Below, piece after piece: positions 27,953 to 43,733 of a DNA stretch of 45,764 nt. Location: the NCBI GenBank assembly GCA_003136575.1, contig PLEX01000171.1, forward strand, positions 1 through 45,764. Reading direction: 5' to 3'. The DNA is from Bryobacterales bacterium (lineage in GTDB: Bacteria; Acidobacteriota; Terriglobia; Bryobacterales; Bryobacteraceae). Position 1 is the first letter of the stretch; each line of letters opens with the position of its first letter. A program made the translations under genes and the position numbers. Below the pieces are notes generated by a model. The model was not told the DNA's origin. It ran no database searches and worked only from the letters and a program-made list of their open reading frames with translations.

Positions 27953-28621
27953 TCAGGCGGCGCTTCGGGCGGAAGAAGCGCGCTGCCGTAAGGCCGCAAG
28001 ATGACAGAGCCGCGGTGTTTCGATTCCACACTCGCATTGATCTTTCACGATCTCAGCCGAAAGGCCGGTCGGCCGACCGTCCACCATTAACCTGCCCGCG
28101 TGGACTTCCGCCCGTTCGGTGGCCGAGTCGAGGTGAAGGCCGTCGTGCACTTCGCATTCCCGCGCCACGACTCGGCCATCCCATCCGCATAGCTGCTCAA
28201 AGAGTGGAAGGCCAAAGGCTCTCCACAGCAGATCCCTGTCGGGGGATGCGAGCGGCAGGTCGACGGGTGAGTCGAGAGACGAAAGCACGACTATCGCAAG
28301 TTTCAGGCTGGGCAAATCGAGATGGCCGCGCAGCTTTCGTTCGGCAAACGCCAAAACCGTGCTCGCCGGGAGCGCCAATGCATCGGGCGCATAGTTTCGA
28401 AGGCCGGAAAAGTCGCCAGGCTCGAAGATTTTCGTGTTAGGGCCGGCATGGAAGGCCACGTCGATCACCGCGAGGCGCGCGGGCACGGAGAGGGGAAAGC
28501 GCAAGGTCTCCCTGCCGCGGCGGCCAGGGATGTCAAAGGCGTCAGCGGACGGACGCTGCCGGAGCCGGAAAGAAGGAAATGTCACGGTGAGCGTTATTGG
28601 GATAGTGCGACGGCGGCCCAC
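27953..28621 (-). CDS. Hypothetical protein, possible AMP-ligase-associated
   Basis: A 222-residue protein with protein-like composition but no domain I can place with confidence. Readable stretches include FDIPGRRGRETLRFPLSVP, NTKIFEPGDFSGLRNYAPDA and SPDRDLLWRAFGLPLFEQL followed by CGWDGRVVARECEVHDGLH. The C-terminal CECGIETPRL looks like the Cys-rich end seen in acyl-adenylate ligase relatives. A GTG at 28585 is an alternative start. It is alone, divergent from the BrnTA pair. The conserved-looking FGLPLFEQL...CGWDG and CxCG pattern makes it more likely real than a shadow. Confidence 0.55.
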   Translation of the reverse strand: MGRRRTIPITLTVTFPSFRLRQRPSADAFDIPGRRGRETLRFPLSVPARLAVIDVAFHAGPNTKIFEPGDFSGLRNYAPDALALPASTVLAFAERKLRGHLDLPSLKLAIVVLSSLDSPVDLPLASPDRDLLWRAFGLPLFEQLCGWDGRVVARECEVHDGLHLDSATERAEVHAGRLMVDGRPTGLSAEIVKDQCECGIETPRLCHLAALRQRASSARSAA

Positions 28622-28760
28622 GATTTCTCAACTATCTTGTGGACTTCAGGTAGCGTTCGCGGATTGACTCAAACCCGGGTACCTCGGGCTGAATACATAT
28701 CTACCCGGCTCTGGCGTGCGGGCCGGAGTGACTGCGTCTGTCATGGCTGGGACACGTTAG

Positions 28761-28783
28761 GCGTGATACGATGCGTGATACGG
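28761..28783 (+). promoter_or_regulatory. Tandem 10-bp repeat before brnT, candidate operator
   Basis: GCGTGATACG occurs at 28761-28770 and again at 28773-28782, ending one base before the brnT ATG (28784). The first unit also contains an extended -10-like TGaTACGAT. BrnA antitoxins repress their own operons through DNA binding near the promoter, so this repeat is a reasonable operator candidate. Position and spacing are seen; the role is inferred. Confidence 0.5.
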
Positions 28784-29074
28784 ATGTTGTTTGAATGGGA
28801 CGCTGGCAAGGACCGCTCGAACCGGAGAAAGCACAGCGGACTCGATTTTGAGACTGCCGCATTGGTATTCGCGGATTCCAATTGCCGCTCCAGGATCGAA
28901 CGCATCGTCGGCCACGAAGTCCGCTGGCAGACCGTTGGACTGGTAGGTGGCCAGTTGCTGATCGTTGCTCATACGTGGGAGGAACAAAATGGAGAAGAAA
29001 TCGTACGCATCATTTCGGCCCGCAAAGCTAGTAAGAGTGAAGGCCGCGGATATTTTCAACAAGTCTCTGAGTAA
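28784..29074 (+). CDS. brnT: BrnT-family ribonuclease toxin
   Basis: A 96-residue RelE-fold RNase toxin of type II systems. It starts MLFEWDAGKDRSNRRKHSGL, matching the family FEWDxxKxxxNxxKHG. The middle VFADSNCRSRIERIVGHEVR corresponds to the usual F-D-P-...-R core, and IVRIISARKASKSEGRGY is the RIISAR motif near the C-terminus. The partner antitoxin follows and overlaps by 86 bases in another frame, longer than the few bases I would expect for brnTA. The gene looks intact, unlike the other toxin-antitoxin genes here. ATG at 28784 chosen because it starts the family motif. Confidence 0.85.
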   Translation: MLFEWDAGKDRSNRRKHSGLDFETAALVFADSNCRSRIERIVGHEVRWQTVGLVGGQLLIVAHTWEEQNGEEIVRIISARKASKSEGRGYFQQVSE

Positions 29075-29336
29075 ACGGCAGATGGCGCTCATAGCCCGAT
29101 TGAAGGAAATGCCCGATGCGGAAATCGACTATTCCGACATTCCCCAGCTTACCGATGCGCAGCTGGATGAGATGGTGCGCGGAAAGTCTCATCGCTCGCC
29201 GAAGCAGCTTATCAGCGTGCGTCTGGAGCCGGAAGTGCTGCAGTGGCTGCGCGATTTCGGCCCCGGGTATCTGACCCGGGTGAACGATATTTTACGTACT
29301 GTCATGCAGCAGGCGCGAAAGCGGAAGTCGCGTTGA
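28989..29336 (+). CDS. brnA: BrnA-family antitoxin
   Basis: A 115-residue partner of BrnT. The C-terminal half is the ribbon-helix-helix-like BrnA domain: KQLISVRLEPEVLQWLRDFG then GYLTRVNDILRTVMQQARKR. The linker EIDYSDIPQLTDAQLDEMV is also family-like. The ATG at 28989 has an excellent ribosome-binding site, GGGAGG, ending 5 bases upstream and inside the brnT coding region; this favours it over the upstream in-frame start at 28965. It should neutralise BrnT and repress the operon. Confidence 0.85.
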   Translation: MEKKSYASFRPAKLVRVKAADIFNKSLSKRQMALIARLKEMPDAEIDYSDIPQLTDAQLDEMVRGKSHRSPKQLISVRLEPEVLQWLRDFGPGYLTRVNDILRTVMQQARKRKSR

Positions 29337-29382
29337 ATTGCGCACGTTGCAGGTGCCCGACACCCATCCGCTAAATTAAGCC

Positions 29383-30090
29383 TTGGCGCAATTCATCACT
29401 CTTCCTCCCGTTTATCCGATTCTCGATACCGCGACACTCGACCGGCTCGGCCTCGACTGGGTTAGCGCGGCCGAAGCGCTGATAGAGGGCGGCGCGCAGA
29501 TCCTCCAGATTCGGCATAAGAGCTTCTGGTCGCGCGACGCGTTCTCTCTCGCGGAGAAGATCACCGGGCTATGTCGATCGGGCGAGTTGCTGTTCGTCAT
29601 TAACGATCGGGCGGTTTACGCGGCGCTGCTGGGCGCGGCTTTGCATGTCGGACAAGAGGATTTGACGCCGGCCGACGCGCGGCGCGTCATCGGTGAGGCG
29701 GCGATTCTGGGGCATTCCACGCACAGCCCGGAGCAGATGAAGGAGGCCGAGATCTGGGTGGCCGCTGCCGGATCAACAAACCCCGCTAGGGGGCAAGGCG
29801 GACGTTCCAGCCTTATAGACTATCTTGCCTTCGGCCCCGTCTTCCCGACTGTCTCCAAAGAACGCCCCGATCCAACCGTGGGAATCGCCGGCCTGAAGGC
29901 CGTCCGAGCTCTCACCAGGAAGCCTCTTGTTGCTATTGGCGGCATCACGCGCGACAATGCTTTCACCTGCTGGAATGCTGGTGCGGACTCGGTCGCGGTG
30001 ATAGCCGACCTGTATCCCAACCCGTGTACGAAAATAACGCTTCGAGATCGGATGACTGAATGGCAAAGGCTGGCGGCATCGAAAAAGTGA
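29383..30090 (+). CDS. thiE: Thiamine-phosphate synthase, with an inserted segment (thiE copy 1)
   Basis: Joins HMP-PP and HET-P to thiamine phosphate. The 235-residue TIM barrel has IQIRHKSF-type substrate residues, VINDRAVYAALLGAALHVGQ, GHSTHSPEQM, AFGPVFPTVSKERPDPTVG and VAIGGITRDNAF. A stretch of about 14 residues (29773-29814, STNPARGQGGRSSL) interrupts the region before the DYLAFGPVF strand; the decayed second copy at 37019 lacks it, so it is likely a later insertion. The start is TTG at 29383; no ATG lies nearby, and the second copy keeps the same TTG context (CTAAATTA upstream). The 3' 245 bp are about 97 percent identical to the second copy. Confidence 0.85.
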   Translation: MAQFITLPPVYPILDTATLDRLGLDWVSAAEALIEGGAQILQIRHKSFWSRDAFSLAEKITGLCRSGELLFVINDRAVYAALLGAALHVGQEDLTPADARRVIGEAAILGHSTHSPEQMKEAEIWVAAAGSTNPARGQGGRSSLIDYLAFGPVFPTVSKERPDPTVGIAGLKAVRALTRKPLVAIGGITRDNAFTCWNAGADSVAVIADLYPNPCTKITLRDRMTEWQRLAASKK

Positions 30091-30160
30091 ACGCCACTTG
30101 TGGTGGGTTCCGTGACCGGCTCCGCGATATTCATCCTGAGCGTCGATCCTTTGCCCGGCT
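30061..30160 (+). pseudogene. 5' remnant of an APC permease gene (copy 1)
   Basis: Immediately after thiE the DNA still resembles the start of the permease at 37499. ATGGCAAAGGCTGGCGGCAT (30061) is identical to that gene's start. After a gap, the sequence around 30097-30152 (CCGGCTCCGCGATATTCATC, GAGCGTCGAT) aligns to the permease segment encoding MIGSGIFIVSAD. The middle of the N-terminus is deleted and the rest of the gene is missing. In this copy thiE survives and the permease is lost. Confidence 0.7.
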
Positions 30161-30190
30161 GGTGTGTCCCTGCCCACTGCGCCCCGGGGG

Positions 30191-30796
30191 CTATCGCGCC
30201 GCCGCGTCCACCCCGAAACAGTATGCGGTAGGCTGCTGGTCCTTCGACTGGATCGCGAACGCGTATTCGCCGGGGGCGAGCGGAGCCGTCGGCGTAATCT
30301 TCAGCGAAGCCTGACCATACTTCGTAAACGACATTTCCAGTTGCTTGCTCTGCAGGTCGCTCTTGCTCCGCGATCCCATGAAGCCGACACCGGTAATCAG
30401 CAATTGCCGCTTTCCTTTATCGACCTTCAGCGGATACAGCAGCACAAGTGTCGCGGGATCCACATCGTGATTCTCCAGTCTCACAACGGCTTCAATCCGC
30501 GCACCAGCCACAACCCGAATCGGCGAGCGATCCTTCTGAATCTCGTACGACACACCCATACCTCCGAGCCCCATCAGCCTGGTGTGCGCGCCCACCCCTA
30601 CAGGCTGGCGTTCCAGCGGCTCAAGGCTTCCGGCTGGGTCGAGCAGAAAGAAAGAATTTACATATTCCGGTTCCGTGGATTTGGCCGCTTCCTGTGCCAC
30701 TGCCGCGCCCACATATGCCAACGCCAAAACGACGCTGGCCGATAAAATCCACCACGCCGCCGTTCCGCGCGGCCCGATCCTTATTTGTCTTGTCAT
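30191..30796 (-). CDS. Secreted or membrane-anchored hypothetical protein
   Basis: A 201-residue protein with an N-terminal hydrophobic segment (AAWWILSASVVLALAYVGAA) that is either a signal peptide or an anchor, then AQEAAKST. The mature part is beta-rich (SYEIQKDRSPIRVVAGARIE, GKRQLLITGVGFMGSRSKSD) and ends with LAPGEYAFAIQSKDQQP, like beta-sandwich proteins of unknown role. A strong AGGAGG ribosome-binding site precedes the ATG at 30796. No family recognised. Confidence 0.75.
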   Translation of the reverse strand: MTRQIRIGPRGTAAWWILSASVVLALAYVGAAVAQEAAKSTEPEYVNSFFLLDPAGSLEPLERQPVGVGAHTRLMGLGGMGVSYEIQKDRSPIRVVAGARIEAVVRLENHDVDPATLVLLYPLKVDKGKRQLLITGVGFMGSRSKSDLQSKQLEMSFTKYGQASLKITPTAPLAPGEYAFAIQSKDQQPTAYCFGVDAAAR

Positions 30797-30808
30797 ATAA
30801 ACCTCCTC

Positions 30809-30830
30809 TTCAATTCCCGTTCAATTCCCG
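30809..30830 (-). repeat. Tandem TTCAATTCCCG repeat upstream of the 30191-30796 gene
   Basis: An 11-bp unit occurs twice in direct tandem (30809-30819 and 30820-30830), just upstream of the ribosome-binding site of the minus-strand gene and within the divergent promoter region of the ECF sigma gene. It could be a regulator-binding site; position only. Confidence 0.35.
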
Positions 30831-30973
30831 AAATTCAACGCTCCACCGCTGGGCGGACGTGATAAAATTCGACCATGCCAAAGGGCCGTAACGGCCTTAA
30901 TTAACTTCGCGTCCCCATACTCGGCATGCAAGGCCTTTATGGATAATTGCGCGAACCGTCCCGAAAAACCGTC

Positions 30974-31621
30974 ATGGCCGATTCGACTGAAGCAACGGCA
31001 ACGCGTCCCGCGCCGGTAAATCGCGCGGCCAGGCGCCTGATCGACGATGCGTTCAGTCTTGCCTACGAGGAACTGCGCCGCATTGCGTCTTCCGTCCGCA
31101 GTCGGGAAGCGAGCTTTACCCTCAACTCCACGGCTCTCGTCAACGAGGCGTGGATAAAGCTCAAGGATTCTCCGCAACTCGCCGGCATCCCGACGCCGCA
31201 CTTCAAGGCGATCGTCGCCCGCGCCATGCGCCAGATTCTCGTCGACGCCGCACGTCGCAGGAACGCCCGGAAGCGAGGTGATGGAGAAGGCGCCGCTCTC
31301 GTGCCGATGGAATTCATCGCCGCCGCTCCCGATTTTTCCGATGTGGAACTTCTCTCCCTGGATTCCGCGATCGCCGAATTGGAGCAAATGAGTCCCCGCC
31401 AGGTGCAGGTTGTCGATTGCATCTCGTTTGCGGGTTTCAGCGTTTCGGAAACCGCCGAACTTCTCCAGGTTTCCGAATCTTCGGTGGATCGGGACAATCG
31501 CTCCGCAAGAGCCTGGTTGAAGAGCCGGATTCAACCCAACCTGACTCAACCCACACTGGCTCAACCCGGCCCCTCGCAGCCCAAGCCTACCCAGCCCCCC
31601 TTGCAATCCGCCGACGACTAA
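30974..31621 (+). CDS. ECF-type RNA polymerase sigma factor (TIGR02999-like)
   Basis: A 215-residue sigma-70-like factor of the group found next to Ser/Thr kinases in Acidobacteriota and Planctomycetota. The region-2 core is visible in YEELRRIASSVRSREASF, STALVNEAWIKLKDSPQ and HFKAIVARAMRQILVDAARR. Region 4 is in LEQMSPRQVQVVDCISFAGF and SVSETAELLQVSESSVDRD. The last 30 residues form a Pro/Gln-rich tail with four xQP repeats (LTQP, LAQP, PSQP, PTQP), unusual for the group. Start at ATG 30974 rather than a TTG at 30947. The kinase starts 4 bases after its stop, so the two are co-transcribed. Confidence 0.88.
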   Translation: MADSTEATATRPAPVNRAARRLIDDAFSLAYEELRRIASSVRSREASFTLNSTALVNEAWIKLKDSPQLAGIPTPHFKAIVARAMRQILVDAARRRNARKRGDGEGAALVPMEFIAAAPDFSDVELLSLDSAIAELEQMSPRQVQVVDCISFAGFSVSETAELLQVSESSVDRDNRSARAWLKSRIQPNLTQPTLAQPGPSQPKPTQPPLQSADD

Positions 31622-31625
31622 TCCC

Positions 31626-34235
31626 ATGGACCGAGCGCGCTGGGAGCAAATACAATCCGTCTTTCACGAAGCGCTCGCGCATCCGCCCGACGAGCGCATG
31701 GTCTGGCTCGAATCCGCCTGCCGCGAAGATCGCCAGTTGAAGACCGAAGTGCTGGCGATGCTGGAGGCGGACGCCGGCGGCGGCTCCCTTCTGGATCGAG
31801 GCCTGTCCGACATGGTTTACAAGACGGTTGCCACGCCTTTCGATCCGGTCGCTTCGCGCGAGTTTGGACCTTATCGCCTGCGCAGGATTCTGGGCGAGGG
31901 CGGAATGGGTGTCGTATGGCTCGCCGAACGCAAGGATGCGGGGAATCCCGTGGCGATCAAATTCCTGCCACACGCGACTCTTTCACCTTCGCGGCTGGAG
32001 CGCTTCGCGCAGGAAATCCGGATGTTGGCGAAGCTCAAACACCCCTGTATCGCGCGGCTGTACGATGCGGGCACTCTGCCCGATGGAACACCCTGGTTCG
32101 TCATGGAATACGTGGAAGGTGTGGGGCTCACGGCGTACTGCCGCGAACGGAAGCCCACGCTCGACGGACATCTGCGCCTCTTTCGCTCCATCTGCGAAGC
32201 GGTTCGCTACGCTCAGGATCACGGTATCACCCATCGCGATCTGAAACCGTCAAACATCGTGGTCGAAGCCGATGGCACACCCCGCCTGCTCGATTTCGGA
32301 ATCGCGCGGGAACTGCGGGATTCCGACGAATCCACCGAGCGTACGCAGCCGGGTCTGCGGTTCCTGTCGCCCGGATATGCGGCGCCGGAATGGTCGCGCG
32401 ATGGCATCGTCGGAACCTATACGGACGTGTATTCCCTCGGGGTAATCCTCTACGAGATGCTCGCCGGGCGACTCCCGTCCGCGCGCGAAGGAAGTACGCC
32501 GGAAAGACCATCGGTTGCCGGGAGTCGGAACCTGAGGAGAGTTTCCCCGGCCGCATGGAACGAGCTCGACGTTCTTTGCCTGAAGGCACTTGAGGAGGAC
32601 CCCGCCAGGCGATATCGCTCGGCCGAAGCGCTGCTGCGGGACGTCGATCATTATGTGAACGGCGAGCCTCTCGAAGCGAAGCCCGACACGTGGCGCTATC
32701 GCGGCGGCAAATTCGTCGGCCGGCATCGCGCCGCCGTCCTGTCGTCCTGCGCCGCTCTCGCGCTGATCGTCTGCCTTACCATAGTTTTCACCGTCCGCCT
32801 GGCGAAAGAGCGCAACGCGGCAGTTGCCGCGGCCGTGCGCACCCAGCGGATCCAGCGGTTCATGCTGAACCTCTTTCAGGGTGACGACAAGGAGGCCGGC
32901 CCCGCAGGCGATCTCCGCGTGGTGACCCTGATCGACCGCGGCGTCACCGACGCGCGCGGCCTCGGCAACGAGCCCGCCGTGCAGGCCGAACTCTACCAGA
33001 CGCTTGGGACCATGTATCAGCGGCTCGGCAAACTGGATCGCGCCGAGTCCCTGCTCCAGTCGGCGCTGAAGGAGCGCAGATCGCTCGCCGAACCCGATTA
33101 CGCGGGGCTTGCGGAAAACCTGATCGCACTCGGCCTGCTGCGGTCCGATCAGGGCAAATCGGACGATGCCACAAAACTGGTGCATGAGGCTTTGGCTGTG
33201 ATTGGCACACATGAATCCGGTGACAGGCCATTGCAGGCAACGGCAAACAGCGCGCTCGGCGAAGTGCTGGCGGAAAGCGGCAAATACGCCGAGGCCGCGG
33301 CAATCCTCAACCGGGTTCTTGCATCTCAGTCGGCGACCGCTCCCAATTCACCCGAACTTTCCGAGACACTCTCCAGCCTTGCCGACGCACAGCTTTATCT
33401 CGGGCATTACGAACTCTCCGATTCCCTGAACCGGCGTGCGCTGGCGATCGACCGGCGGATCTTCGGGGACAACCACCCGCACGTCAGCGACGATCTGGGA
33501 AATATGGCCCAACTGCAGGAAAACTGGGGCCATTATGCGGAGGCCGAACGATACGAACGTCAGGCGCTCGCCGTCACCGAAGCATGGTACGGCAAGGACC
33601 ACCCCGATACGGCGAGGAAAATGACCACCCTGGCAAGCACTCTGATTTACGAGGGGAAGAATCCGGAAGCGGACGATCTTCTCACGCAAGCGCTCGCCAC
33701 GCAGGTAAGGGTATACGGGAACAATAGTCACTGGGTCGCTTACGTCGTGAATCTGCTGGGTGGCATGGCACAACAGCGAAAGGATTTCCCGGCCGCGGAA
33801 ACGGATTTCCGCCGCGCCGCGGACATTTATCGCGCCGCCTATGGCGATGGCAATTACAAAGTTGCCGTCGCGATGGGAAACATTGCCAGTTTGTATTTCA
33901 GTGAAAAACGATACCCGGAGGCGGAACAAATCTTCAGGGAAGTGGTTCAAAGATTCACAAAGATCTATTCTCCCGGCAACATAAATACGGGGCAGCTTGA
34001 AATAAAGCTCGGACGAACCCTGCTTGCCGAAAAACGCTACCGGGAAGCGGAAGCGCAAACGCGAGCCGGCTACGAGGTTCTCATCAAACAGACCAGCCCA
34101 TCGACAAGCTATATCGTCGGTGCCCGCAAGGATCTGGTCGCCATCTACGAGGCCCTCGGCCGGCCGGAGGACGCCCGGAAGTTCCGCGGGGATCTGGCCA
34201 ACGCGCCCGACGCAAAGACCGCCGGCCCAAAGTAA
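31626..34235 (+). CDS. Membrane Ser/Thr protein kinase with TPR repeats
   Basis: An 869-residue kinase co-transcribed with the ECF sigma factor. After a helical N-terminal 80 residues (RARWEQIQSVFHEALAHPPD) the kinase domain starts at about 83: LGEGGMGVVWLAER, VAIKFLP, H203-R-D-L-K-P-S-N, DFGIARE and YAAPEW. One membrane segment lies at about 369-391 (SCAALALIVCLTIVFTV). The remaining half consists of TPR units such as YQTLGTMYQRLGKLDRAESL and LNRRALAIDRRIFGDNHPHV, which should be extracytoplasmic. In such pairs the kinase is thought to control the linked sigma factor (family knowledge). The opposing long ORF 33348-35090 is a shadow. Confidence 0.92.
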   Translation: MDRARWEQIQSVFHEALAHPPDERMVWLESACREDRQLKTEVLAMLEADAGGGSLLDRGLSDMVYKTVATPFDPVASREFGPYRLRRILGEGGMGVVWLAERKDAGNPVAIKFLPHATLSPSRLERFAQEIRMLAKLKHPCIARLYDAGTLPDGTPWFVMEYVEGVGLTAYCRERKPTLDGHLRLFRSICEAVRYAQDHGITHRDLKPSNIVVEADGTPRLLDFGIARELRDSDESTERTQPGLRFLSPGYAAPEWSRDGIVGTYTDVYSLGVILYEMLAGRLPSAREGSTPERPSVAGSRNLRRVSPAAWNELDVLCLKALEEDPARRYRSAEALLRDVDHYVNGEPLEAKPDTWRYRGGKFVGRHRAAVLSSCAALALIVCLTIVFTVRLAKERNAAVAAAVRTQRIQRFMLNLFQGDDKEAGPAGDLRVVTLIDRGVTDARGLGNEPAVQAELYQTLGTMYQRLGKLDRAESLLQSALKERRSLAEPDYAGLAENLIALGLLRSDQGKSDDATKLVHEALAVIGTHESGDRPLQATANSALGEVLAESGKYAEAAAILNRVLASQSATAPNSPELSETLSSLADAQLYLGHYELSDSLNRRALAIDRRIFGDNHPHVSDDLGNMAQLQENWGHYAEAERYERQALAVTEAWYGKDHPDTARKMTTLASTLIYEGKNPEADDLLTQALATQVRVYGNNSHWVAYVVNLLGGMAQQRKDFPAAETDFRRAADIYRAAYGDGNYKVAVAMGNIASLYFSEKRYPEAEQIFREVVQRFTKIYSPGNINTGQLEIKLGRTLLAEKRYREAEAQTRAGYEVLIKQTSPSTSYIVGARKDLVAIYEALGRPEDARKFRGDLANAPDAKTAGPK

Positions 34236-34301
34236 TTCTCCCCTGCCGAAGCGGCCGCCGGCCCTTTCCGTACAAATCTCCGGAATAATCTGACGCCTTT
34301 T

Positions 34302-34318
34302 CTGCGCGGTTTGCGCAG
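34302..34318 (+). other. Hairpin CTGCGC-ggttt-GCGCAG after the kinase gene
   Basis: A 6-bp stem with a 5-base loop, preceded by TTTT and followed by TTTGAGG, in the 120-bp gap between the kinase and the next secreted-protein gene. It may be a weak terminator or part of a promoter read by the linked sigma factor. Confidence 0.35.
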
Positions 34319-34355
34319 TTTGAGGTGAAGAGCAGAAAAAAGGAGAGCACATCGA

Positions 34356-35072
34356 ATGAACAATCGAAGAAATCTGAACCTGAAACGTCGCGCGGCGTGG
34401 GTCGCGCCGTTCCTTATGATCCTGGTCGCAGGAGTCATTGCCGTGCGCGCACAGTCGACAGCGGCGCCCTACGCGGAATTCCAGTATTCCACGCTGACCG
34501 GCTCGGGCAACACGATCACCGCAACTCAGGTCCCCGTTGTTACATCTACCGGCGTGACCGTCTATGAAAACCTTTCCCTCCAGTTCAACGTCGATGCCAA
34601 CGGCAACCTGTCCATCGCGACCGGCTACCCGCAGGTTGTTCCGGCCCCCGCTCTGCTGGCTTCCGGCTTCCTGGCGGGCACATATATCGGCCCGCCCACA
34701 GTGAACAGCGGCGGCATGATTATCAGCGTGGCCGGCCCTGGAGTTACGAGCGGCGGCGCGACAGAGTGGACTCTCAGCAGCGCCAGCGGCGCCAATGCCT
34801 GCACCTTCCCCTACAGCGCCACGTGGTATGTCGGACCAATCTCCAGCAGCCCGCTGGCGGCGCGACTCAAGTCCAATGGAATCACTTCGACGGCCTGGAG
34901 CTACGGCATCGGCACCGCTTCTCAATGCAGCGGAGCGAACAATGCGTGGTACCTCAACCCACTGATTGGAGTCAGCCAGGTGGGCAATACCATCACCTTT
35001 GCAAGCTTCACTTTTCAAAACAGCGACTACAGCACTCCACAGGCTCAAATCACCTACACGCTCAAGCAATAG
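34356..35072 (+). CDS. Secreted hypothetical protein
   Basis: A 238-residue protein with a long signal peptide or anchor (AAWVAPFLMILVAGVIAVRA, then QSTAAPY). The mature part is Ser/Thr/Gly-rich beta structure (ATSWYVG-like repeats, SLQFNVDANGNLSIATGYPQ) ending in PQAQITYTLKQ. Two cysteines are visible (ACTFPYS and SQCSGAN). Ribosome-binding site AAGGAGAG lies about 10 bases before the ATG. No family recognised. Its position behind the ECF/kinase pair and before a Solibacter-domain protein suggests an extracellular target regulated by them, but this is inference. Confidence 0.75.
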   Translation: MNNRRNLNLKRRAAWVAPFLMILVAGVIAVRAQSTAAPYAEFQYSTLTGSGNTITATQVPVVTSTGVTVYENLSLQFNVDANGNLSIATGYPQVVPAPALLASGFLAGTYIGPPTVNSGGMIISVAGPGVTSGGATEWTLSSASGANACTFPYSATWYVGPISSSPLAARLKSNGITSTAWSYGIGTASQCSGANNAWYLNPLIGVSQVGNTITFASFTFQNSDYSTPQAQITYTLKQ

Positions 35073-35101
35073 GTGATTTCCGGCCGACACAGGCGCCTCT
35101 T

Positions 35102-36928
35102 ATGACCCGCACTATCCCGAAACCAATCGTCTGCCTGCTCGGCCTTTTCGCCGCATTCGCTCCTGCGGTCTGCTGGGCGCAAACCTATACGATCAGCACA
35201 GCCGCCGGTGGCGCGAATCCGTATTTTTATAGCGGCACGGGCGACGGCGGTCCGGCCACCAGCGCGGGCCTCGCCACGCTCTGCTATGACGTCGCGCTCG
35301 ACGGCGCGGGCAATCTCTACATCGTCGCCGGCACTCTGGTTCGCAAAGTGACACCCGGCGGCGTCATCTCCACCGTTGCAGGCGGCGGTTCCATAGTCGA
35401 CGATGATGTCCCGGCCACTCAAGCCGAAATCGCGCCTCTCGCCATCGCAGCCGACGCGGCGGGCGACCTCTTCATTGCCGACACCGAATTCGGCGATTCC
35501 CGTATTCGCAAGGTGGACACAACCGGCAACATCACGACTGTCGCCGGAGGCGCGGCCTGTTGCACTCTGGGTGACGGGGGTCCGGCGACAAGCGCATACA
35601 TCGGCATTCCGTACGGCCTCGCCATCGACGCGGCGGGCGACATCTATATCGCACAGACGGACCTTACCAACAATCGCGTCCGCAAAGTGTCCGCCGCCAC
35701 CGGCGTCATCTCGACCGTTGCCGGAGGCGGCGCAGTTTCCGGAGACGGAGGCCAAGCCACGGCGGTTTTGCTTGCAAGTCCCACCGGCGTGGCTGTCGAC
35801 AACGCCGGAAATCTCTACATCGCCGAATCCGCTGGAAATCGAATCCGGATGGTGAACGGCACCGGCGTGATCTCCACGGTCGCAGGTAGCGGTGTCGGCA
35901 GCAGCGCAGGCGATGGCGGCCCTGCACTATCGGCTGGTGTCGACAATCCCTGGCATGTGGCGGTGGATTCCGGCGGCAACCTCTACATTTCTCAGATTAA
36001 CGACGCGCGGGTTCGCCTCGTGGCCTCAACCGGCACGATAACGACAATCGCGGGAACCGGCGTGCACGGCTTCTCCGGCGACAACGGCCCTGCGACGAGC
36101 GCTGCTCTGGATCGCCCGGCCGGACTCGTAGTCGGCCTGTGCACCGGTTCCGTCTACGTCGCCGACGCAACGTACGGCACCGCGCGAGTGCGCCTCCTGA
36201 GTCCGCCGGTTTCGATCAACGCAAACGGCGTCGTTCCGGTCTACAGTTCGGCCACGACGATCCAGCCGGGTTCATGGGTCTCCATCTACGGCACGGGCCT
36301 GGCCTCCACAACCTCCGTGTGGAATGGCGATTTCCCCATCTCTCTGGCTAATACCAGCGTTACGATCGACTCCAAACCTGCGTACCTGTGGTTCGTGAGT
36401 CCGACGCAGATCAATCTTCAGCCACCCGACGACGCCACAACGGGAACGGTCAACGTGCAGGTGACCACTGGTGCCGGAAGCGCGTCCTGCCCGGTCACGC
36501 TCGGTCCCTACGGACCTTCGCTCAGTCTGTTCAGCGGCAACTACCCCGCGGCGATTGTCTTGACGCCGGGTAGTCCGGGCAATAGCGGCGCGGGCTACGA
36601 CTATATCGGGCCAGTGGGCGCGTTTTCGTTCCCAACGCGACCGGCGAAAGCCGGCGAGACACTGGTGCTCTACGGCGTCGGATTCGGACCGACCAGCCCG
36701 GTGGTGATGGCGGGGAAATTGTATTCGGGTGCCGCGCCCAGCCTGACGACGCCGCAGATCACCATAGGAGGCGTCACGGCAGCGGTGGGTTTCGCCGGCA
36801 TCGTGGAGGCAGGGCTATTCCAATTCAACGTCACCGTTCCCGGCGGACTCGGCACGGGAGACAAGGTGCTGCAGGCCAGCGTCAACGGTGTCCCGGCGCC
36901 GGCGGGCGTGTTTATCACGCTCCAGTGA
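35102..36928 (+). CDS. Secreted NHL-repeat protein with Solibacter-type C-terminal domain
   Basis: A 608-residue exported protein; signal peptide VCLLGLFAAFAPAVCWAQ. At least five NHL propeller repeats are readable, each of the form GDGGPATSA...PxGLAxDxxGxxYIA (for example GIPYGLAIDAAGDIYIAQ, VAVDNAGNLYIAESAGNRIR). The C-terminal 220 residues match the Solibacter C-terminal domain: IQPGSWVSIYGTGLASTTSV, LWFVSPTQINLQPPDDATTG and VLYGVGFGPTSPVVMAGKL. A 30-base gap separates it from the preceding gene. The propeller may bind a surface ligand or polymer; function unknown. Confidence 0.9.
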   Translation: MTRTIPKPIVCLLGLFAAFAPAVCWAQTYTISTAAGGANPYFYSGTGDGGPATSAGLATLCYDVALDGAGNLYIVAGTLVRKVTPGGVISTVAGGGSIVDDDVPATQAEIAPLAIAADAAGDLFIADTEFGDSRIRKVDTTGNITTVAGGAACCTLGDGGPATSAYIGIPYGLAIDAAGDIYIAQTDLTNNRVRKVSAATGVISTVAGGGAVSGDGGQATAVLLASPTGVAVDNAGNLYIAESAGNRIRMVNGTGVISTVAGSGVGSSAGDGGPALSAGVDNPWHVAVDSGGNLYISQINDARVRLVASTGTITTIAGTGVHGFSGDNGPATSAALDRPAGLVVGLCTGSVYVADATYGTARVRLLSPPVSINANGVVPVYSSATTIQPGSWVSIYGTGLASTTSVWNGDFPISLANTSVTIDSKPAYLWFVSPTQINLQPPDDATTGTVNVQVTTGAGSASCPVTLGPYGPSLSLFSGNYPAAIVLTPGSPGNSGAGYDYIGPVGAFSFPTRPAKAGETLVLYGVGFGPTSPVVMAGKLYSGAAPSLTTPQITIGGVTAAVGFAGIVEAGLFQFNVTVPGGLGTGDKVLQASVNGVPAPAGVFITLQ

Positions 36929-37018
36929 AACCCGATCATTGAACGGCTCACCTGCTACCGGGCGGCGTGGCCAACCAGGTCTGCCCGTATGACGCGCGAC
37001 CGGATACTAAATTAGTTC

Positions 37019-37528
37019 TTGGCGCGATTCGCTCTTCCTTCCGTCTATCCAATTCCCGACACCACAACGGTCGATCGCTTCGCTGTCGTTGAGGCGCCGA
37101 TCGAAGGCGGCGCGGGGATGCATGGGATCCGGCATCAGGCGCTCCGGTCACGCGAGACGTTTGTCCCGGCCGATGCGCGTCGGGTTGCCTGCACCGACGC
37201 CATTGTTGGATTTTCCACGCATAACCCCGGGCAACTGACGGCGGCCAAAGCCGGTCGATTATGTCGCGCGCGGCCCCGTTTTCCCGACTGTCTCCAAAGA
37301 ACGCCCCGATCCAACCGTGGGAATCGCCGGCCTGAAGGCCGTCCGAGCTCTCACAAAGAAGCCCCTTGTTGCTATTGGCGGCATCACGCGCGACAATGCA
37401 TTCACCTGTTGGAATGCTGGCGCGGATTCGGTCGCGGTGATAGCCGACCTGTATCCCAACCCGTGTACGAAAATAACGCTTCGAGATCGGATGACTGAAT
37501 GGCAAAGGCTGGCGGCATCGAAAAAGAC
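37019..37528 (+). pseudogene. Second thiE copy, broken and internally deleted
   Basis: Same TTG start context (CTAAATTA-GTTC-TTGGCGCG) and same N-terminal reading as thiE copy 1: FALPSVYPIPDTTTVDRF. About 40 residues corresponding to the AEKI...VGQED part of the barrel are missing (RETFV runs straight into PADARRV), and a frameshift near 37253 moves the rest to another frame. In that frame VGIAGLKAVRALTKKPLVAI and the rest match copy 1 almost perfectly. From about 37280 to 37526 the DNA is about 97 percent identical to 29842-30087. The permease ATG at 37499 lies inside this 3' end. Confidence 0.85.
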
Positions 37529-38929
37529 GGATTAGCAACAGGCGGGGCAGCCAAAGACGGGTTTGTAAAAGGCCTCGGCCTGCTGGACGCCACGACGCTC
37601 GTGATGGGGTCCATGATCGGCTCCGGCATTTTCATCGTGAGCGCCGATGTCGCGCGTCAGGTGAAGTCGCCGGGACTTCTTATTGTTTGCTGGCTGCTGG
37701 CGGCGGCGCTCACCATCGTCGCCGCGCTGAGTTACGGCGAACTCGCGGCGGCCATGCCGCAGGCGGGCGGCCAATACGTCTACCTGCGCGAGGCCTTCGG
37801 ACGTCTCTGGGGTTTCCTGTTCGGCTGGACGATGTTCGTGGTCATTCAGACGGGCACGATCGCGGCGGTCGCGGTCGCGTTCGCCAAGTACACCGGCGTG
37901 TTTCTGCCTTCGGTATCGGCGTCGAACTATCTTGTAGGTTCCGGAAAAGTCGGCCTGACGACGCAACAGCTGCTTGCGATCGCTATCGTGCTGGTACTCA
38001 CCTTTGTGAACACGCGCGGCATCCGCACCGGCGCAATAGTTCAAAACATCTTTACTGTGACAAAGGTCGTGTCGCTGCTGGGCCTGGCGGGACTGGGCTT
38101 CCTGCTTGGCCGAAACCCGGTTGCCATGGCAGCTAATTTTCACGATTTCTGGCGCGGGGCATCGTGGAGCTGGAGCGTCGTGGCGATGGTGGGAACGGCG
38201 ATGGTGGGGCCGTTGTTCGCTTCGGACGCATGGAACAATGTCACCTTCACCGCCGGCGAGGTGCGGAATCCGAAGCGCGATCTTCCCTTGTCACTCGGAA
38301 TCGGCACGGGGGTCGTTTCCGGCCTTTTTATCGCCTGCAATTTCGTCTACCTGTCGGTTTTGACGCTGCGTCAGATACAAACGGCGCCGGAAGACCGGGT
38401 TGCGACGGCCGTGGTGACCGTCATGTTCGGGGCGGTTGCCTCGAAGATCATGGCGGCGGCCATCATGATCTCGACGTTCGGATGCGTGAACGGCCTTATC
38501 CTGTCTGGCGCGCGCGTCTATCACACGATGGCGCACGACAATCTCTTCTTCCGCCGCGCGGGCGAATTGAACCCAAAAACTCATGCGCCGGATTTCGCAC
38601 TGTACATCCAATGCGGCTGGACGATTCTGCTCACACTGAGCGGGCAGTACAGCGATCTGCTCGACTATGTTATCTTTGCAGTTCTGCTGTTTTACGTCCT
38701 GACCATCGGCGGATTGTTCCGGCTCCGCCGCACGCGCCCGGATATGGAGCGGCCCTACCGAGCCGTAGGCTACCCCTTCCTGCCTGCCCTGTACATCGTC
38801 GTCGCGGGCGTGATTGAAGTCCTGCTGTTGGTGAACAAACCCGCGTTTACAGTGCGCGGGCTGATTCTGGTTCTGCTGGGGGCGCCGGTTTATTTCCTTT
38901 GGCAGCGGAAAGAAGGTCCAAACAAGTGA
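37499..38929 (+). CDS. APC-superfamily amino-acid permease
   Basis: A 476-residue integral membrane transporter with about 12 hydrophobic segments. The first helix has the APC glycine motif SMIGSGIFIVSADVARQV, followed by GELAAAMPQAGGQYVYLREA and AFKE-like GEVRNPKRDLPLSLGIGTG. The first ten residues (MAKAGGIEKD) are encoded by DNA that is also the 3' end of the broken thiE copy, so the permease start overlaps an older gene. It is followed by a second permease whose GTG overlaps its TGA. Substrate is probably an amino acid but cannot be fixed. Confidence 0.9.
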   Translation: MAKAGGIEKDGLATGGAAKDGFVKGLGLLDATTLVMGSMIGSGIFIVSADVARQVKSPGLLIVCWLLAAALTIVAALSYGELAAAMPQAGGQYVYLREAFGRLWGFLFGWTMFVVIQTGTIAAVAVAFAKYTGVFLPSVSASNYLVGSGKVGLTTQQLLAIAIVLVLTFVNTRGIRTGAIVQNIFTVTKVVSLLGLAGLGFLLGRNPVAMAANFHDFWRGASWSWSVVAMVGTAMVGPLFASDAWNNVTFTAGEVRNPKRDLPLSLGIGTGVVSGLFIACNFVYLSVLTLRQIQTAPEDRVATAVVTVMFGAVASKIMAAAIMISTFGCVNGLILSGARVYHTMAHDNLFFRRAGELNPKTHAPDFALYIQCGWTILLTLSGQYSDLLDYVIFAVLLFYVLTIGGLFRLRRTRPDMERPYRAVGYPFLPALYIVVAGVIEVLLLVNKPAFTVRGLILVLLGAPVYFLWQRKEGPNK

Positions 38930-40344
38930 GTCTTTTCGCAGTTAAGCCTTTATCGCGGATCATGGCCGAGAGCGAGGGCGGTGAGCACTCGCTGAAGCGG
39001 TCCCTGGGACCGTTCCAGTTGGTGGCGCTCGGCATTGGCGCCATCATCGGCGCCGGTCTGTTTGCGCTGACGCCGATCGCCGCACACGATCTGGCGGGGC
39101 CGGCGGTAGTATTCTCGTTCATTATTGCGGGACTCGGCTGCGCCTTCGCCGGAATGTGCTACAGCGAATTCGCCACCATGATTCCGGTGGCGGGCAGCGC
39201 CTACACGTACGCCTATGCGACGATGGGCGAGTTGCTGGCCTGGATAATCGGCTGGGATCTGGTCCTGGAATACGCGGTCGGCGCGGCGACGGTGTCGGTG
39301 AGCTGGTCGAAATATCTGATACGGCTGTTCGCGCATTACGGCGTGACACTGCCGGCCAGTCTGACTGCGTCTCCATTCGAAGGCGGCACTGTGAACCTTG
39401 CGGCGATCTTCATCGTTTGCGTCGTGTCCTGGGTTTTGATCATTGGAATCTCGGAATCGGCGAAGGCGAATGCCGTAATTGTGGTGCTGAAGGTGACGAT
39501 TGTCGCCCTGGTCATCGGACTTGGGTACGCATACGTGAATCGGGCCAACTATGTGCCGTTTATTCCGCCGAATACCGGCGAGTTCGGGCACTTCGGCTGG
39601 AGCGGAATCGTACGCGCGGCCGGCGTGATCTTCTTCGCCTATATCGGGTTCGACGCCGTGTCCACGGCCGCGCAGGAGGCTCGCAAGCCGCAGCGCGACA
39701 TGCCGATCGGCATCATCGGATCCCTCGTTGTCTGTACGATTCTCTACGTGCTGTTCGCCCGGGTGCTGACCGGCATCGTGAACTATAAGGACATGACGCC
39801 GACGGCGGTCTACGACGCCATTAACGCGACAAAGTATGCGTGGCTGTCGACCGGCGTGATTATCGGCATCCTGGCTGGATACACCTCCGTGATTCTGGTG
39901 ATGCTGCTGGGACAGAGCCGTGTATTCTTTTCCATGTCGCGCGACGGGCTGCTGCCGAAGCTGTTCTCCGACGTTCACCCGAAATTCAAGACACCGTGGA
40001 AATCCAATCTGCTCCTGATGATTTTCGTCAGCCTGTTTTCCGGCTTCCTCCCGATTTCAAAACTGGGCGAGATGACAAGTATCGGGACGCTGCTGGCTTT
40101 CGTAATCGTCTGCGGGGGAGTCATGATCATGCGCAAGACGAACCCGAACCTGCCGAGACCTTACAGAACGCCCCTGGTGCCACTGGTGCCCATTCTGGGA
40201 ATTCTGGTCTGCCTTTCCATGATGGTGGCTCTCGATATCGCCACCTGGATTCGTCTCGTGGTTTGGCTGGTGATCGGACTGGCGATCTATTTCGGCTACA
40301 GCCGCCAACGAAGCACACTGAGGCTGAGCGGCGAAGGGAAGTAG
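38926..40344 (+). CDS. Cationic-amino-acid-type APC permease
   Basis: A 472-residue integral membrane transporter. From the GTG at 38926 it reads SLFAVKPLSRIMAESEGG, the cytoplasmic leader typical of the CAT/YfnA-like group, then LKRSLGPFQLVALGIGAIIG and AGLFALTPIA. Later motifs are YSEFATMIPVAGSAYTYAYA, FFAYIGFDAVSTAAQEARKP and QSRVFFSMSRDGLLPKLF. The frame continues upstream to a TTG at 38899, but the GTG overlaps the previous TGA (GTGA) and has an AGAAGG ribosome-binding site. Probably co-translated with the first permease. Precise substrate unknown. Confidence 0.9.
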   Translation: MSLFAVKPLSRIMAESEGGEHSLKRSLGPFQLVALGIGAIIGAGLFALTPIAAHDLAGPAVVFSFIIAGLGCAFAGMCYSEFATMIPVAGSAYTYAYATMGELLAWIIGWDLVLEYAVGAATVSVSWSKYLIRLFAHYGVTLPASLTASPFEGGTVNLAAIFIVCVVSWVLIIGISESAKANAVIVVLKVTIVALVIGLGYAYVNRANYVPFIPPNTGEFGHFGWSGIVRAAGVIFFAYIGFDAVSTAAQEARKPQRDMPIGIIGSLVVCTILYVLFARVLTGIVNYKDMTPTAVYDAINATKYAWLSTGVIIGILAGYTSVILVMLLGQSRVFFSMSRDGLLPKLFSDVHPKFKTPWKSNLLLMIFVSLFSGFLPISKLGEMTSIGTLLAFVIVCGGVMIMRKTNPNLPRPYRTPLVPLVPILGILVCLSMMVALDIATWIRLVVWLVIGLAIYFGYSRQRSTLRLSGEGK

Positions 40345-42045: not shown

Positions 42046-42062
42046 CTAAACCGGGGAAGGAG

Positions 42063-42205
42063 ATGGCAAGTCCAGCCCCGATTCCGCTCACCGACTACTC
42101 ACCGGATGGCGTGGACCTCACCCTGACGCCCGCGCGATGTCTCGAATTCCACGAGCGCCGATGGAAGATATTCTGGCGATCCGGAAACTGAATGCCCGAG
42201 GGTAA
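42063..42205 (+). pseudogene. Small DVDLTLIRxxLSLTPxxRL-type protein, copy 1 (broken)
   Basis: Homologous to the intact small gene at 43091. From the ATG at 42063 it reads MASPAPIPLTDYSPDGVDLT, then lacks 21 bp (the IRWFLSL part) and has a one-base deletion near 42165. The frame therefore ends as RWKIFWRSGN. Restoring the frame recovers DILAIRKLNARG and a TAA at 42203-42205, overlapping the next gene's ATG (42192), the same overlap as in copy 2. Probably the antitoxin-like half of a two-gene module. Confidence 0.75.
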
Positions 42206-42497
42206 CCTCCGGGCAGCCCTGCGGTTGTTGAGCGGGCATCGCATCGATTGCGTCCTTGTGGGCGGGCTCGCAGCGGTTCTGCACGGGGTTCCGGTTAATA
42301 CCTGCTATATCGATATCGCGCACTGCCGCGAACCCGCAAACTTACAACGGCTTCTCTCGTTGCTTGAGACGCTGGACGCGATCTTTCGAATCCAGGCCGA
42401 ACAGCGGCGGTTGGGGCACCAGCGAATTCAAGCCATTCAGACCCCGAACGTTGGGCGCGGAGCAGACGTCTCGCCGCCGCGGCTTCGGGGAATCTGA
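42192..42497 (+). pseudogene. Nucleotidyltransferase-like gene, copy 1 (truncated)
   Basis: Starts MPEGNLRAALRLLSGHRIDC, then VLVGGLAAVLHGVPVNTCYI and LQRLLSLLETLDAIFRIQAE, which match the N-terminal half of the AbiEii/MNT-like nucleotidyltransferase-fold proteins found behind such small genes (GG...D-I-D core). After QRRL the homology to copy 2 stops and the DNA jumps to the sequence found downstream of copy 2 (TTCAAGCCATTC, GAGCAGACG). The 3' half is therefore deleted; the remaining frame to 42497 is non-coding flank. Duplicated flank homology continues for about 110 bp. Confidence 0.7.
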
Positions 42498-42915: not shown

Positions 42916-43090
42916 CGTTACCGACTCCCTTTCGATCGCGGCCCAGCAAACAGTGCTCGTCTGCGAGAGTCCCTTGTCTGTGGCTGGATCTCGACCCTGA
43001 CATTGACGTGCGTCAAGTGGACGGTTGGCAGCGAGTTCCGAGACAGGTAAAGCTTGTCTCGGGGTTCAGCGCGCTAAACTGGAAGCGGAA

Positions 43091-43255
43091 ATGGCAAGTC
43101 CTGCCCCGATTCCGCTCACCGACTATTCGCCCGATGGCGTGGACCTCACCCTGATCCGCTGGTTTCTCAGTCTGACGCCGGCGCAACGGCTCGAACTCCA
43201 CGAGCGTCAGATAGGAGATATTCTGGCGATCCGGCAATTAAATGCCCGAGGGTAA
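43091..43255 (+). CDS. Small antitoxin-like protein, copy 2 (intact)
   Basis: A 54-residue protein reading MASPAPIPLTDYSPDGVDLT, then LIRWFLSLTPAQRLELHERQ and IGDILAIRQLNARG. The VDLTLIR-x3-LSLTPxxRL motif is known to me from small ORFs directly before nucleotidyltransferase-fold genes, where the small protein probably acts as partner or antitoxin. Its stop overlaps the ATG of the next gene by 14 bases. The gene is open, but its partner is broken by two frameshifts, so it may be an orphan on its way to loss. Function is inferred only from arrangement. Confidence 0.55.
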   Translation: MASPAPIPLTDYSPDGVDLTLIRWFLSLTPAQRLELHERQIGDILAIRQLNARG

Positions 43256-43733
43256 CCTCCGGGCAACCCTGCGTTTGTTGAGCGGACATCACATCGATTT
43301 CGTCCTTGTGGACGGGATCGCGGCGGTGTTGCATGGGGTTCCGGTTAATACCTAACGATATCGACATCACGCACTCCCGCGACTCCGCAAATATACAACG
43401 GCTTCTCTTGTTGCTCGAGACAATGGACGCGATCTTTCGAATCCAGCCCGACCGGCGGCTGAAACCGAACTCCAGCCACCTGTCCGGGCAAGGACACGTC
43501 AATCTCATCACCCGCTTCGGGCACCTCGATCTGCTCTGCACCATCGGCGATGGGTTCTCCTACGAGCAGCTTCTTCCATACTCCGAAAGCTGGATCTGGA
43601 CGAAGGCCTTTCCATCAGGATACTGTCTCTGGAGAAGCTGATCGAATTGAAGGAACAATCGGCGAGCCAGAAGGACGTGGCGATGCTCCCCCTTTTGCGC
43701 CGGGCGCTCGAGGAAAGGCGTTTCGGTCAATAG
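43242..43733 (+). pseudogene. Nucleotidyltransferase-like gene, copy 2 (two frameshifts)
   Basis: Starts MPEGNLRATLRLLSGHHIDF, VLVDGIAAVLHGVPVNT, then a stop caused by an extra A (CCTAACGAT instead of CCTACGAT near 43356). In the next frame it continues YDIDITHSRDSANIQRLLLL, HLSGQGHVNLITRFGHLDLL and YEQLLPYSESW; a second shift near 43596 leads to LDLDEGLSIRILSLEKLIEL and ends LPLLRRALEERRFGQ at 43733. All pieces together give a complete protein of about 160 residues of the family, including the D-x-D pattern in YDIDI. Non-functional as it stands. Confidence 0.8.

Follow-up and report, generated by a model that had tools for sequence, protein, structure and literature searches.

The window analysed here is one whole contig of 45.8 kb (45,764 nt; GenBank PLEX01000171.1) from a soil acidobacterium of the Bryobacterales, whose 6.6-Mb genome is assembled in 242 contigs and 83% complete. 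It harbours two copies of a segment in which thiE, the gene for thiamine monophosphate (TMP) synthase, precedes permA, an amino acid permease gene. Copy 1 consists of an open thiE and a stub of permA, and copy 2 of a broken thiE and an intact permA. The 3' ends of the two thiE copies are almost identical, unlike their 5' parts. We consider it rather probable that two thiE-permA copies underwent uneven gene loss and that their shared end was later homogenized by gene conversion.

Two thiE-permA copies and their decay

A sequence-only reading of this contig had described an intact thiE followed by a degraded permease start and, downstream, a broken thiE followed by an intact permease. Both descriptions are borne out (Table 1). 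Copy 1 thiE matches the ThiE families over its full length, with 150 bits against Pfam TMP-TENI (cut-off 27 bits) and a score slightly below the TIGR00693 cut-off of 145.1 bits; thiE of the related genome G012 reaches 162.7 bits. It retains Q42, R44, K46, D75, D93, S112, T156 and K159, which we take to be catalytic or active-site positions. It differs from other ThiE proteins by an 18-codon insertion, located between the SxHxxxQxKxAE and DYxxxGP stretches in an alignment to 1g4t, and by a Val at a site where the 18 other compared sequences all have Asp. A single odd site of this sort is not unusual, as other sequences have 0 to 4 of them. (G017, near-identical to G014, was omitted from this comparison, as well as from the synonymous-site scan, the triplet mosaic analysis and the G012 permA comparison described below.) Judged from these sequence features, copy 1 thiE is probably functional. 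Its insertion contains a small palindrome, CCCCGCTAGGGG. A mobile repeat as the source of the insertion was dropped, as it occurs at one place in the window and has no second copy elsewhere in the genome, where only chance-level matches of 14-22 bases were found.

The 57-bp permA remnant begins right after the copy 1 stop codon, and permA nt 29-93 are missing there. Behind copy 1, permA is represented by fragments of its first ~150 bp alone, and permB, the second permease gene of the cluster, is not detectable. The copy 1 segment may therefore have been born truncated, with no loss of a whole permA.

The broken thiE of copy 2 spans positions 37019-37526 and runs into permA. As had been claimed, its 5' part differs strongly from that of copy 1: 173 of 256 alignable bases match, and the gaps of 15 and 120 nt are present relative to both copy 1 and the relative G007. 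The frame changes before position 37257, since the open reading frame (ORF) 37019-37498 and the thiE-frame ORF 37317-37535 are in different frames. When five sequences were compared, the changes unique to copy 2 in the 5' part fell at codon positions 1/2/3 in the proportions 14/9/0, versus 1/5/1 for copy 1, 2/0/6 for G012, 2/4/2 for G007 and 1/1/10 for G001. Thus, copy 2 has lost constraint. The frame-shifted remnant 37019-37499 is itself an open ORF of 159 codons whose TGA abuts the permA ATG, and it might act as a translated leader for permA.

The ancestral gene order, which the earlier reading proposed to seek in relatives, was found in most of them. Among 80 loci collected by their permA, 69 have thiE just upstream; four of the others are cut by a contig end, and seven lack thiE despite room for it. 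A candidate permA start overlaps the thiE end in 13 of 16 genus or family relatives. The script used to detect the overlap found no permA start for the other three (G006, G007 and G018), and the G007 start was seen by eye. As the order is common and the overlap conserved, copy 2 stands where the pair normally occurs, and copy 1 is an additional thiE followed by a permA stub. In a family search of 200 genomes, four had two thiE matches at E<=1e-35, namely this genome, G001, G003 and G051. The double matches of G001 and G003 are neighbouring pieces of one gene, and G051 was left unassigned. Two close thiE places were thus found in this genome only, among the resolved ones of the 200, G051 standing outside this count. 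The genome has no third match to the duplicated DNA, and a distant relative of the TMP-TENI/thiE family is present on another of its contigs.

Table 1. Features of the thiE-permA locus (window coordinates)
Feature	Position	Strand	Characteristics
thiE copy 1, ORF of 235 residues	29383..30090	+	TMP-TENI E 5.2e-44; TIGR00693 141.8 bits; conserved positions kept
18-codon in-frame insertion in thiE copy 1	29752..29805	+	exact placement alignment-dependent
High-identity tract, copy 1	29832..30087	+	248/256 identical to 37271-37526
Decayed permA remnant (permA nt 94-150)	30091..30147	+	79% identity, blastn E 1.8e-8
Block between the copies	30191..36928	.	uncharacterized ORF (- strand), extracytoplasmic function (ECF) sigma factor, Ser/Thr kinase-TPR, uncharacterized ORF, NHL-repeat protein (Pfam)
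Decayed 5' part of thiE copy 2	37019..37257	+	68% to copy 1, 15- and 120-nt gaps, 23 unique position-1/2 changes
High-identity tract, copy 2	37271..37526	+	248/256 identical to 29832-30087
permA, intact amino acid permease, start inside thiE end	37499..38929	+	AA_permease_2 E 2.8e-56; overlap in 13/16 relatives
permB, second amino acid permease of the cluster	38962..40344	+	AA_permease_2 E 1.4e-53; follows permA in relatives

Probable recombination in the shared thiE end

The 3' ends of the two thiE copies form a tract of 96.9% identity, slightly longer than the 245 bp first claimed, which gives the lowest E-value of all repeats in a self-comparison of the window. The tract contains the first 28 bases (nine codons) of permA. 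Uniform divergence along the copies, which had been named as contrary to a conversion, was not observed. Third-position identity between the copies rises from 46/84 in the 5' part to 72/79 in the tract, as compared with 44/84 to 43/79 between copy 1 and G007 and 36/84 to 50/79 between copy 1 and G012. None of 20,000 permutations reached the observed run of agreement between copies 1 and 2 (p = 5e-5), and the smallest permutation p among the other nine pairs was 0.019, for copy 1 and G012. In the tree of the tract, the two copies are sisters (support 86), with almost no branch for copy 1 and a branch of 0.03 for copy 2. In the 5' tree, copy 1 groups with G001 (58) and copy 2 falls outside copy 1, G001 and G007, the four forming one clade (93). 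A tree restricted to the columns present in copy 2 instead places copy 1 outermost in the clade of the same four (92). The jump in third-position identity, the permutation result and the disagreement between the 5' and tract trees make recombination between the copies the best reading of the tract. It is bounded by the copy 1 insertion shortly upstream and by the missing permA nt 29-93 directly downstream, and it thus fits a recombination that ran until homology failed.

The sequence-only reading had suggested that the junction is protected because it encodes the permease N-terminus. This part of the proposal can hold for about the last 30-60 bp only, where permA starts inside thiE. The overlap accounts for the survival of the last ~30 bp, but not for that of the remaining ~200 bp. 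A synonymous-site scan of 19 thiE genes gave its top window, GGITRDN, within the tract (excess 0.155; mean 0.036, sd 0.040), and most tract windows are devoid of excess conservation. Thus, recombination is needed to account for most of these ~200 bp.

The mechanism, its direction and the order of events we infer as follows. The second thiE-permA copy would have arisen through segmental duplication long ago or through acquisition of the segment from a related strain. Copy 1 would have retained thiE and the permA stub only, and copy 2, in the usual cluster, would have lost thiE and retained permA and permB. Later homologous recombination in the form of gene conversion, possibly repeated or involving alleles of other strains, would have overwritten approximately the last 256 bp of thiE, extending to where indels or heavy divergence break homology. 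The overwritten tract would be the only part useful on both sides, as the ThiE C-terminus in copy 1 and as the PermA start in copy 2.

Several observations weigh against this history. The two 5' trees conflict on the order of copies 1 and 2, with weak supports inside the 5' clade (58-87), and neither has them as sisters. In-place duplication is therefore not shown, and the second copy may instead derive from a related strain. The two tracts differ at eight sites, seven of which are third codon positions (binomial p 0.0026); seven of the eight also fall within a stretch of 73 bp (simulated p 0.016). With free drift of copy 2 since one conversion, changes at first and second positions should be more numerous, and the codon bias thus fits poorly with a dead copy drifting after a single event. 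Repeated events or import of the live allele of another strain would explain it. Lastly, shared synteny, the absence of which had been named as contrary to the proposal, extends to the thiE-permA order only. Nine relative stretches share thiE, permA and permB with the window and otherwise show weak, generic matches, and neither the flanks nor the 7-kb block between the copies was found in the relatives examined, so that the pre-duplication state was not seen. The related copies, their complementary damage, the homogenized 3' end and the thiE-permA order of relatives thus agree in part with the duplication, complementary loss and conversion first proposed; nevertheless, complementary loss is one reading of the damage.

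Both gene-pseudogene conversion and the uneven loss of genes from duplicated operons have precedents, and the twist here is the overlapping gene junction. As in gene conversion between a gene and a pseudogene or between paralogues, a short tract of high identity occurs between diverged copies and is bounded by heterologies. At neutral sites, the copies agree better in the tract than in its flanks, and better than the orthologues do, and the trees of tract and flank disagree. In contrast with other such cases, the tract doubles as the start of another gene through the overlap. The locus also resembles the differential loss that can follow duplication of an operon segment, in that one copy retains thiE and the other permA, and both the linked order in relatives and the remnants of permA and thiE are in line with such a loss. 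However, copy 1 may never have held a whole permA, and no whole duplicate of the thiE-permA segment was found in any genome examined. The locus provides a clean natural case of an overlapping junction shaping the decay of duplicates, in which the shared end survives twice, the rest rots and recombination refreshes what is shared. It also holds a warning for annotation, as an old pseudogene can contain a fragment with 97% identity to a live gene. Identity over a part is therefore no date for a duplication. Overall, the event is ordinary genome wear, neatly preserved.

Alternative histories and mosaicism in a relative

Copy 1 thiE and the intact permA might have formed one operon until recently. 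A relic, composed of a dead thiE-permA and the 7-kb block, would then have entered the intact operon through one crossover within the shared stretch, leaving the live halves outside and the dead halves inside. Such an insertion yields exactly the observed order of live thiE, dead permA, block, dead thiE and live permA, and it requires no complementary loss. Three of the five likely block genes, the kinase gene and the two uncharacterized ORFs, are also near-absent from 19 genus genomes at the thresholds used. Across the 18 other genomes, a single relative of the kinase (E<=1e-150) was found, as well as one of the ORF at 34356 and three of the ORF at 30191, of 31-38% identity. Nevertheless, the tract of the relic would need refreshing anyway, as its flanks are only 68-79% identical, and the G+C content of the block (0.617) is close to that of the contig (0.603). 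No Pfam domain of a site-specific recombinase or integrase was detected in the five likely block genes, smaller ORFs not being covered, although a homologous crossover needs none. We hold this insertion, the main alternative, to be possible, if somewhat unlikely. The locus evokes phage 21 and e14, which integrate into the 3' end of icd and bring a replacement end. In both situations, near-identical 3' gene ends flank an accessory block, with mostly synonymous differences. However, no integrase domain was found in the block described here, and a decayed 5' part of thiE and a decayed permA start lie inside it.

Cross-joining of two loci within the repeat by the assembly of a metagenome bin is improbable. 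The genome is fragmented and incomplete and the junctions do fall in a repeat, but a chimaera would take two misjoins in one contig. Furthermore, the copies differ at eight sites of the repeat, and each is flanked by matching decay of its missing partner.

A further alternative, in which selection by itself preserved the tract twice as an embedded coding or regulatory element and no conversion took place, was rejected as the main cause on the basis of the synonymous-site scan and is very improbable. In its favour, permA does start inside thiE, the third-position bias looks as though ThiE coding were constrained and no other window of thiE reaches the synonymous conservation of GGITRDN across the genus. 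However, most tract windows show no excess, and the tracts of G012, G007 and G001 depart from that of copy 1 at 16-28% of all sites and at 37-68% of third positions.

In G012, too, thiE shifts in affinity close to this point. It is a mosaic resembling G006 or G015 up to alignment column 488 and copy 1 from there on (p 0.0002, the lowest value attainable with 5,000 shuffles); the tract begins nearby, at column 477. When G007 replaces copy 1 as a parent, the break moves to column 554 (p 0.0002, with G006) or 518 (p 0.03, with G015). More broadly, 108 of up to 1,365 triplets gave p<=0.005, the minimum possible with 200 shuffles. Of the 108, 51 break in columns 420-539 of 780; copy 2, G017, G019, G020, G021 and G024 were left out of this analysis. 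As the triplets are interdependent and uncorrected, this share of mid-thiE breakpoints is a lead only. The whole permA of G012 is 82% identical to that of this genome, 78% to that of G006 and 75% to that of G015, an order that matches the 3' half of its thiE.

These data hint at a genus-wide recombination unit made of the thiE 3' half and permA, with a recurrent breakpoint in mid-thiE and permA being swapped or repaired along through the overlap, a generalization that we regard as doubtful. It is equally doubtful that this unit homogenized the live and dead thiE copies here, the end of the dead gene being kept as the start of the live one. Other G012 breakpoints are found at columns 518-584, and its permA shows no clear preference over the first 450 bp; like the interdependence of the uncorrected triplets, both speak against a unit of this type.

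Start context, permeases and neighbouring genes

The shared homology had been said to include the start context of thiE together with the first permease codons. The nine permA codons are indeed part of the tract, and the CTAAATTA-TTGG context is present in both copies. However, it is also found in orthologues (G012 CTAAATTAGTCCTTGG; G007 and G001 similar), and it is therefore ancestral rather than a mark of duplication. In both copies, a TAAATT lies ~8 nt ahead of a TTG start (29367-29383 and 37003-37019); it is also present in G012 and G001 and is TACATT in G007. The CTAAATTA-TTGG context resembles a putative -10 box just before the TTG start, and the position of TAAATT suggests a leaderless thiE transcript. 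A sigma-70 consensus scan of positions 36900-37560 found no promoter-like site, so the -10-like character is deduced from conservation.

permB is 74-79% identical to its counterparts in G003, G004, G005, G009 and G018 and about 55-56% identical to those of G001, G007, G012 and G015. As permA and thiE are nearest to those of G012 and G007, the history of permB seems to differ from theirs. In G001, 3' pieces of permA lie between thiE and permB (L116 9437-9719; permA nt 1150-1205 at 86% and 1355-1431 at 79%, E 7e-15), so that permA was lost independently there while thiE was retained. The best permA match of G004 is 53% identical and on a different contig from its thiE, and the corresponding gap contains no significant permA piece (best E 0.02).

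An identical 20-mer, AAATCAGCAGAGGAATTTTT, is present at the thiE end just upstream of permA in 20 of 174 loci, all of Acidobacteriales type (L054 7764-7783 and 19 others, L054-L104), and is absent from this window. Synonymous conservation peaks at this 20-mer (excess 0.265, z 4.4, 48 sequences), which may be an embedded regulatory element.

No rpoB match, sought for a species tree, was found in this 83% complete genome. Many old paralogues were described in Solibacter (PMC3174227), and the term 'gene conversion' does not occur in that text. Our literature search found nothing on this thiE-permA locus.

Directly upstream of thiE copy 1, positions 28322-29336 code for a BrnT toxin (Pfam E 8.5e-20) and a BrnA antitoxin (E 1.6e-12). 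The contig also harbours a second duplicated stretch, 42046-42408 and 43074-43459, with 82% identity. The two ORFs in this repeat match no Pfam family. Its similarity peaks in the middle (55/60) and fades toward both ends.

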